Below, in pieces: positions 57,069-59,126 of a stretch of 64,000 bases of DNA. The position numbers and the translations under genes are program-made. Source of the stretch: Rhizobium sp. Q54 (lineage in GTDB: Bacteria; Pseudomonadota; Alphaproteobacteria; UBA2966; CAIVPW01). The notes under the pieces are model-generated. The model worked only from the letters and a program-made list of their open reading frames with translations, had not been told where the DNA came from and searched no databases. The stretch's first letter is position 1. Each line of letters begins with the position of its first letter. The stretch is from assembly GCA_945947575.1 (NCBI GenBank), contig CAMEYM010000012.1, positions 1-64,000 of the forward strand, read 5' to 3'.

Positions 57069-57081
57069 GCTCTCGCCTCGT

Positions 57082-57110
57082 GTCATTGCGAGCGCAGCGA
57101 AGCAATCCAT
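57082..57110. repeat. GTCATTGCGAGCGCAGCGAA-type dispersed repeat
   Basis: This is the well-known repeat with GTCATTGCGAG and GAAGCAATCC; ATTGC (57085–57089) and GCAAT (57102–57106) are inverted. It follows coaD by 13 bases. The remainder of the 315-base gap to 57383 has no gene that I can see. Confidence 0.6.
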
Positions 57111-57383
57111 TGCTGCCGGTGCACCGCCCCTCACGCTGGGCGTAGTCACGACACTGCCCGCAGTGGATCGGGCGCACCGTCACCTGTGCCGCAGCGCGCT
57201 TCTCTAGGTCACGGCCATAACACGCCCGCGCACGCCGCACTGTCGGTACTGTGCCGCATCGAGGTTCGGCCGTCCGAGGGGGCCGCACCGCTTCCGACGA
57301 GTTTGAATGCGTGGCGTGGCCGCCATCGGTCGCGCGCAACCGTCGGTGCTGTTGTGCAACCAAAAGACCCAATAGGAGCCAGC

Positions 57384-57635
57384 ATGACCATCAACGCTGT
57401 ACCGCCCACCGCTCCCGAAATCATCAAGACCCCGCCCATCAACCCGAACGTCAACCGCAATCCGGGCGACGACCTGAAGCTGCCGTCCGACAAGCCGATG
57501 GGCGAAGTGCGCGGCGGCGAAGCCTCCCCGTCGCCGGACGACGACGAAGAGCCCGAGGACACGGACGCCGCGGACGATGACTCCGCCGGCAAGTCCGAAG
57601 ACGAGGCCGACGACGAGAGCCAACCGGCCCAATAA
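57384..57635 (+). CDS. Small acidic disordered protein
   Basis: An 83-residue product with a good Shine-Dalgarno (TAGGAGCC). It starts MTINAVPPTAPEIIKTPP and ends with a highly acidic tail (DDDEEPEDTDAADDDSAGK). No domain was recognised and it is probably unstructured. It stands alone, between repeats. Real expression is plausible from the RBS and codon bias. Confidence 0.5.
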   Translation: MTINAVPPTAPEIIKTPPINPNVNRNPGDDLKLPSDKPMGEVRGGEASPSPDDDEEPEDTDAADDDSAGKSEDEADDESQPAQ

Positions 57636-57651
57636 CGGCGTCGTTGACCCC

Positions 57652-57681
57652 GCATCCAGCCGCCGTCCAGCGGCTGGATGC
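57652..57681 (+). terminator. Hairpin after the acidic protein gene
   Basis: GCATCCAGCCG (57652–57662) and CGGCTGGATGC (57671–57681) form a perfect 11-base stem with an 8-base loop, 17 bases after the stop. There is no T-run, so a terminator is possible but not certain. Confidence 0.45.
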
Positions 57682-57738
57682 GTCGATGCGCCCACGGAGC
57701 TCTCAGAGAAATCCCGGCCCTGCCTAGATTTTCGATCC

Positions 57739-57786
57739 CTCGCCCGGAACGGGCGCTAGGCGCGCCCGGCGCGCCTCCGGCACGAC
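57739..57786. repeat. 48-base GC repeat, intergenic copy
   Basis: It carries GCCCGGAACGGGCGC, GGCGCGCCCGG and GCGCGCCTCCGGCACGAC. It is followed by GGCTGGGTGAGGGTGC, as in other copies. It is one of the longest intergenic copies. Confidence 0.6.
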
Positions 57787-57857
57787 GCTTGGCGCCTGAG
57801 CGCCTGGCGCAGGCTGGGTGAGGGTGCTGTTGTCTTGTTGTCTGGTCGGACCGCTGT

Positions 57858-58088
57858 CTAAGAGTCCGCTGCTCCCGCCCCCAGAGCACCCCGCACCTTC
57901 GCCGCGTTGACGACGCAATCCCCCAGCGCCCTCGCGCCCGCCGCCATCCCGGCCTCCGCGCACGCCGCCCGATCCGCCACGAATCTCTCCATGGCCACAG
58001 CATCCCGTGCGCCGAGGACGTTCGACCACGCGAATCCGATCACCGTTCCAACGAGCGACGTGACGAGCAGCAGGCGGGGTGGGGTCAT
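57858..58088 (-). CDS. Small SOS-regulated candidate membrane protein
   Basis: The 76-residue protein has one N-terminal helix (RLLLVTSLVGTVIGFAWSNV) and a periplasmic or cytoplasmic domain of about 50 residues with two cysteines (ACAEAG and GDCVVN). No family is recognised. It lies behind a promoter with a LexA-type SOS box (58118–58132), so damage-induced expression is predicted. ATG at 58088 has GGAG upstream. A longer start at 58115 would lie inside the promoter. The SOS-induced SidA of Caulobacter is a smaller inner-membrane division inhibitor; no sequence similarity is claimed. Confidence 0.55.
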   Translation of the reverse strand: MTPPRLLLVTSLVGTVIGFAWSNVLGARDAVAMERFVADRAACAEAGMAAGARALGDCVVNAAKVRGALGAGAADS

Positions 58089-58113
58089 GGGAGGCTCCGG
58101 CAAAGACACCGGC

Positions 58114-58142
58114 ATATGTTCACTATATGTTCACTCTGTCAA
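58114..58142 (-). promoter_or_regulatory. Sigma-70 promoter with LexA SOS box GTTCN7GTTC
   Basis: On the minus strand TTGACA (58142–58137) is followed after 17 bases by ACATAT (58119–58114). The plus-strand sequence GTTCACTATATGTTC (58118–58132), that is GTTC-N7-GTTC, lies in the spacer next to the -10. It is the alphaproteobacterial LexA operator, and it is also an 11-base tandem repeat. The plus gene on the right has its own candidate TTGACG at 58160–58165. Confidence 0.7.
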
Positions 58143-58222
58143 ATCCATCGCATAACGTATTGACGTAGATACGTGTCGTACCACATGCAGGCGTGAAACC
58201 AGCGCCTACGGAGCCAATCGCC

Positions 58223-59086
58223 ATGCTTACCGAACACGAAATGTCACGTGCCGGTGATCTGCATATTTCGCGCATATCCAATGCAAACGGCGCCCCGCCC
58301 AACCGCAATCCGCGCGGCAAACCCTTCGGCACCGACGGCCATAGGGGCGGCCGCCCGCCCGGTTCGCGCAACAAGGCGACGCTGCTCGGCGAGGCGCTGC
58401 TCGACGGCGAGCTGGACAATGTTATCCGTCGCACCATCGACCACGCCGTGGCCGGCCATCCCACCGCCATGCGCCTGGTGGTGGAGCGCCTCGTGCCACG
58501 CCGCGGTCGCCGTGCCCCGTTCGAGCTGCCGCCAATCGACACCATCGCCGACGCCCTCGCGGCCATGAAGCGCATTCCGGCCCTCGTCGCCGACGGCGAG
58601 CTCGATCCGCGCGAGGGCGCTGCCATGGTCGCGATGCTCGACCAGACGTATCGCACGCTGCAGGACGCGCAGAACAACGCCGAAGCCGCCGCGCTGGTCC
58701 GCGGCCTGAGGTTCGGACGCCCCGCACCGGCGCCGGCCGCCGAGCCGCCGCCGGTGCGCGACGCAGCCCGAGAGCCGGCCCCGGAAACCGCAGCGGAGGC
58801 CCCGACAGAGGCCGCAACGGAGCCGGCGACCGAGGCCGCGACAGAGGCCGCATGGGAGGAACCGCCGGCCGCCGCGCCGGACGAAGTCGTCACCAGCGTC
58901 GCCGATGCTGACGCCATCGAGCTCCCGAGCAGCTACATGGACGGTGATGGCCCCGAGCGCGCCGGCCGCGAGCTCGGCCTCGACCCCTGCGCCCACGGCA
59001 CGCTCGCCGTCTTCGAGAACCCCGACCTCGTCGCGCCCCGGCTCATTTCCTGGAAACGGAACCGGGGCGCCGCCGGCACCAGTTGA
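58223..59086 (+). CDS. DUF5681-domain protein with Ala/Glu/Pro-rich tail
   Basis: The 287-residue product has the DUF5681 signature GRPPGSRNKATLLGEALLDG near residue 45, which also occurs in phage-type and plasmid proteins. The middle is helical (IADALAAMKRIPALVADGEL); the C-terminal half has alternating A/E/T stretches (PTEAATEPATEAATEAAW). ATG at 58223 follows GGAG, preferred over GTG 58193. There are inverted repeats ACGTAT-N8-ATACGT at 58155–58174 in its leader. The function is unknown. Confidence 0.6.
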   Translation: MLTEHEMSRAGDLHISRISNANGAPPNRNPRGKPFGTDGHRGGRPPGSRNKATLLGEALLDGELDNVIRRTIDHAVAGHPTAMRLVVERLVPRRGRRAPFELPPIDTIADALAAMKRIPALVADGELDPREGAAMVAMLDQTYRTLQDAQNNAEAAALVRGLRFGRPAPAPAAEPPPVRDAAREPAPETAAEAPTEAATEPATEAATEAAWEEPPAAAPDEVVTSVADADAIELPSSYMDGDGPERAGRELGLDPCAHGTLAVFENPDLVAPRLISWKRNRGAAGTS

Positions 59087-59126
59087 TCGCCGCCCGCTGC
59101 CGCCTGTGTGCTAGAAGCGCCCGCCC

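Follow-up and report, generated by a model that had tools for sequence, protein, structure and literature searches.

The window, i.e., the whole stretch of 64,000 nucleotides analysed here, from an uncultured alphaproteobacterium, contains a minus-strand open reading frame of 76 codons, with its ATG at 58088 and its stop codon at 57858-57860, preceded by a ribosome-binding region, a LexA-type box and a -35 element, and flanked by a divergent gene (Table 1). The first-pass annotation had delimited this locus correctly, with the stop codon and the -35 element as its limits, leaving the strand (minus) unstated. An alternative in-frame ATG located upstream, at 58115, would give a product of 85 amino acids. 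This start was rejected, as it is not conserved across the four species that carry the gene; the ATG at 58088 and the GGAG are invariant among them, and 76 amino acids is therefore the right length.

Table 1. Coordinates of the features at the locus, as positions of the window.
Feature	Position	Strand	Remarks
Gene for a 76-aa small envelope protein (putative)	57858..58088 (stop codon included)	minus	Three other species of the genus have homologues
Ribosome-binding region	58093..58100	minus	GGAG kept in all four species
LexA box GTTC-ACTATAT-GTTC	58118..58132		8/8 specified columns invariant in four species
-35 element TTGACA	58137..58142	minus	Conserved in all four species
ACATAT, previously proposed as -10	58114..58119	minus	Weak match, not conserved
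Inserted segment between coaD and queA, holding the gene	57069..59126		Absent from G004 and the other family members checked
Divergent neighbour, weak DUF5681 match	58223..59086	plus	Intact in G000 and G002; G003 copy degenerate; none found in G001

The small protein begins with a hydrophobic helix, at about residues 4-26. The one hydrophobic helix previously claimed for it is borne out by hydropathy, which delineates a single hydrophobic stretch of 19 residues (7-25), its mean being 1.7-1.9 in three species. After this stretch comes a helical tail, in which D39-R-A-A-C43, G47, G51 and C58 are invariant. The AlphaFold model, based on three sequences and low in confidence (pLDDT 66), consists of two helices spanning residues 4-50 and 52-73. 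Neither Pfam nor NCBIfam gave any match to the 76-residue protein, a LysM domain of the YneA/ChiZ type being absent by the Pfam search, and the search against PHROGs returned nothing usable (E 0.18 or worse). Furthermore, tblastn in phages and plasmids yielded zero relatives, and none was found in a scan of viral contigs or in a profile search of the PDB. A prophage or plasmid origin of the gene is accordingly without support.

At 58118-58132 the sequence reads GTTCACTATATGTTC, which corresponds to the alphaproteobacterial form of the LexA box, GTTC-N7-GTTC, published for Caulobacter LexA as GTTCN7GTTC (PMC12700426). It lies 30 bp upstream of the ATG and is the sole GTTCN7GTTC or GAACN7GAAC in the window; moreover, its exact 15-mer occurs only once in the whole genome. 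On the gene strand, where the box reads GAACATATAGTGAAC, the order of the elements is TTGACA, GAGT, the box, ATATG..., GGAG and ATG. The box had been described as lying in the spacer of a TTGACA/ACATAT promoter. Indeed, TTGACA-N17-ACATAT is present to the letter (58142-58114, minus strand) and its -35 holds; the -10 does not, as ACATAT matches TATAAT at 2/6 letters and no promoter was reported at this site by a sigma-70 scan, so that the -35 half alone is convincing.

A box alone in one genome means little. From the base composition, 1.1 matches to GTTCN7GTTC are expected in the window, in line with the former estimate of about one box per 64 kb, and pattern counts over the entire genome (2.49 Mb, 40 contigs) gave 57 matches vs 55 for the reversed control pattern. 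The expectation falls to 0.006 per window when the spacer is required to be as A/T-rich as the one observed (6/7). Boxes of this A/T-rich class, with at least 5 A/T of 7, number 10 vs 0 in the control, a difference (Fisher p = 7.6e-4) that is indicative only, because the A/T threshold was chosen after inspection of the list. Among the boxes whose neighbouring genes were read, the class includes those of imuA, dinB and lexA. The first of these genes (L035) was recognised by the ImuA model at 3.4e-18, under the curated cut-off, the second (L038) by its IMS domain, and the third (L043:2586-3281) as the single LexA gene over the TIGR00498 cut-off (175 bits vs 111). A further box, at L041, stands beside a nuclease-like gene with a weak SNase match. 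RecA is also encoded in the genome, and recA is preceded by a LexA-type box with one mismatch.

The gene is present in four species of one genus (G000, G001, G002 and G003), where the box occupies the same position as GTTCACTATATGTTC, GTTCATGCTATGTTC, GTTCATGAAATGTTC and GTTCATGAAAGGTTC, respectively. In the alignment of the intergenic regions, the invariance of the box columns (8/8) contrasts with that of the other columns (36/126; Fisher p = 8.5e-5), and the best-conserved 15-base site of GTTCN7GTTC shape is the LexA box itself. The gap between TTGACA and the box is 4-6 bp in all four species. The membership of the A/T-rich spacer class, the presence of a LexA gene and the conservation in three related species thus place the box above chance. 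The view that it is a fortuitous match, which the genome-wide counts and the window expectation would by themselves allow, is hardly credible against its conservation in four species, its A/T-rich spacer and the conserved -35 adjoining it. The SOS (LexA) control put forward in the first-pass annotation is therefore strengthened by the box and the -35 conserved in four species, by the matching boxes at imuA, dinB and lexA, and by a LexA gene that scores over its cut-off; on these sequence grounds, the small gene would very probably be under LexA control.

The protein shares 79% and 49% identity with its two intact relatives. Relative to the nearest one, dN is 0.138 and dS 0.591 (dN/dS 0.23), a signal that rests on this pair, more distant pairs being near saturation. 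The changes by codon position amount to 10, 9 and 28, i.e., 28/47 fall at third positions, and this mostly synonymous change is as would be expected for a translated gene. An early break interrupts the reading frame in G003, where the remaining protein can be read in another frame; this would reflect either a real disruption or an assembly error. A fifth species of the same genus, G004, does not carry the gene, which is thus dispensable.

As judged from gene order, the small gene is inserted between coaD and queA within the genus. In G004 and the other family members checked, queA comes directly or nearly directly after coaD, and in G000-G003 the two are separated by a segment of about 0.8 to 2.1 kb (three measured). 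At the edge of this segment, directly after coaD, lies a repeat-like sequence, TGTCATTGCGAGCGCAGCGAAGCAATCCATTG (57081-57113). The segment also holds an 83-aa, strongly acidic plus-strand frame (57384-57635), which has no Pfam match and was not seen in G001 or G002 by a simple motif search.

The box could be thought to serve mainly the divergent DUF5681-like gene, since both genes diverge from one intergenic region, with about 90 bp between the box and the start on the plus strand. However, the box keeps its short distance from the minus-strand -35 in all four species, the plus-strand gene has a TTGAC element of its own 27 bp beyond the box, and two species in which the box persists have a degenerate copy of this gene or have lost it, making such an assignment improbable. 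From the comparison of the four genomes, the small gene is independent of this neighbour and it is the small gene that the LexA box tracks. A toxin-antitoxin pairing of the two genes was likewise rejected, because the small gene persists in two species whose putative partner is degenerate or not found. Two other elements were observed on the plus-strand side of the region. An inverted repeat, ATACG-TGT-CGTAC (58169-58181), lies in the plus-strand promoter region, has the form ATACRNNNYGTA(Y/G) across four species and is possibly a candidate operator for a repressor. The other, TCACG-N4-(C/G)GTGATCTG (58244-58257), close to where the plus-strand gene starts, is preserved as DNA in almost this form throughout the four species, including those in which the gene that follows is gone.

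Apart from the gene itself, a profile built from the genus scores highest against small lipoproteins, whose motif is C-x3-GF-x2-(G/T)T-x2-(F/Y)-x2-C. In turn, a profile built separately from the lipoproteins retrieves the protein of G001 at 2.4e-10 and that of the window at 2.6e-4, and the reverse search, of the genus profile against the lipoproteins, reaches down to 3e-8. The cysteine motif and its spacing are present in the small protein, and the lipobox cysteine after the N-terminal helix is absent from the proteins of the genus. As identity is 19-30%, the similarity being mostly that of the C-x3-G-x(10)-C motif, a common ancestry of the small protein and the two-cysteine lipoproteins is graded only as probable.

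These lipoproteins are present in all five members of the genus, where no LexA box was found at their genes within the stretches read, and, at a threshold of E 1e-4, in 38/385 genomes from across the class, where a nearby LexA box is mostly absent. Distant matches in the class obtained with profile A1 above about 1e-4 were treated as noise. In the three genomes of family f11 (L053-L055), a tandem pair of them is located between imuA, identified by the ImuA model, and imuB, identified by its IMS domain, and is divergent from the latter. In the intergenic region shared by the pair and imuB there is a box, GAACAAAAAGAGAAC or GAACAAAATAAGAAC; it lies near the probable start of imuB, and about 80-115 bp separate it from the first lipoprotein gene. 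For the lipoprotein pairs of family f122, no LexA box was found within the 3-kb stretches read, and SOS control is therefore not general to the group.

The gene, the box, the -35 element, their conservation and the presence of LexA and RecA are read directly from the genomes. Upon them we propose, as the explanation that on balance fits best and with some reserve, that the locus encodes a LexA-repressed envelope protein of 76 residues which would act on the envelope during repair. LexA binding, induction, topology, disulphide and target are predicted as follows. LexA would sit just downstream of the TTGACA -35, blocking RNA polymerase, and RecA filaments on single-stranded DNA would trigger the self-cleavage of LexA and thereby turn the gene on, so that it would very likely be made only upon DNA damage. 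The product would be held in the inner membrane by its one N-terminal helix, exposing to the periplasm the two-cysteine helical tail, probably a hairpin that a disulphide between Cys43 and Cys58 would close. We infer this placement, with the cysteine tail outside, from the hydrophobic helix together with the lipoprotein relatives, and an envelope location of the product can be regarded as probable. Taken together, the features of the locus make a protein of the envelope induced by the SOS response the likely product.

As to how this protein would act on the envelope, the most likely specific role would be a delay of septal wall synthesis, as for SidA, YneA and SosA. This analogy makes division inhibition by the small protein a tentative proposal, and a role in the envelope other than division would be about equally likely. 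The reading as a dedicated division inhibitor is weighed against by the widespread lipoprotein relatives, mostly without a nearby LexA box; no sequence link to a known division inhibitor was found, the only relatives found being small two-cysteine lipoproteins. The alternative that survives best, conceivable to a similarly limited degree, is that of an envelope-maintenance protein under SOS control, i.e., a former lipoprotein that lost its lipid anchor, came under LexA and would shield the envelope during filamentation. The reciprocal matches of the two profiles, the presence in each member of the genus of such a lipoprotein with no LexA box, and the f11 tandem pair adjoining a LexA box speak for it, but the similarity is mostly that of the cysteine motif, at low identity, and the f11 box is much nearer to imuB than to the lipoprotein pair. 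More speculative, and rather unlikely, is the idea of a new SOS checkpoint protein, unrelated in sequence, derived from a recruited two-cysteine lipoprotein whose lipid anchor would have given way to a membrane helix and whose promoter to a LexA-controlled one, the same kind of protein having been independently drawn into the imuA-imuB locus of another alphaproteobacterial family. If true, such a recruitment would suggest that the SOS response of Alphaproteobacteria has a general envelope arm that has gone unrecognised. Finally, a membrane-depolarising SOS toxin like TisB would equally be a small protein with one hydrophobic helix and an SOS box, but 76 residues and a conserved two-cysteine tail would be needless for a simple pore peptide, which makes this very improbable.

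SOS-controlled small membrane proteins are a known kind, to which the protein of 76 residues would add a member. SOS division inhibitors are fast-evolving and unrelated between lineages, and therefore each must be found anew; to our knowledge, none is known in most Alphaproteobacteria outside Caulobacter. The use of small integral membrane proteins to block division at a late step has been described as a recurrent SOS device (PMC13396833), and SidA, with 29 aa, binds FtsW (PMC4211646). The Caulobacter SidA, a division inhibitor induced by SOS, is, like the proposed protein, alphaproteobacterial, LexA-controlled, very small and endowed with an inner-membrane helix, a likeness drawn by description; it differs in its length, 29 residues vs 76, and in the two-cysteine tail, found here. 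YneA of Bacillus, ChiZ of Mycobacterium and SosA of Staphylococcus are SOS-induced and combine one membrane helix with an outer part, and a similar way of working is proposed here; YneA and ChiZ carry a LysM domain, whereas the small protein is without a Pfam domain. DidA of Caulobacter (71 aa) is comparable in size and also in its layout, a single helix flanked by short segments, but is driven by DriD instead of LexA. The alphaproteobacterial two-cysteine lipoproteins (C-x3-GF-x2-GT-x2-F-x2-C), for which no Pfam name was found, have the cysteine motif and its spacing in common with the small protein and differ in their lipobox cysteine and in that most of their genes have no nearby LexA box. 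In this context, the small gene constitutes a concrete candidate with a conserved switch, and the connection, in two lineages, between the DNA-damage response and a widespread group of unnamed lipoproteins would be the less expected part for specialists.

Other LexA-type boxes were observed elsewhere in the genome. One of them, GTTCTCTTTCCGTTC, in the stretch L042:2501-5014, is just upstream of a gene for a B12-type ribonucleotide reductase, inside which lies an intein with a LAGLIDADG domain. Another, GTTCCCTCTATGTTC (L038:2501-2515), lies about 250 bp upstream of mraZ, the gene with which the division and cell-wall cluster usually begins. A third, GTTCTTGTTATGTTC, in the stretch L037:2501-2782, precedes by about 30 bp the gene of a 79-aa protein with two CxxC pairs and weak DUF and zinc-ribbon matches, which may represent another candidate small SOS gene.
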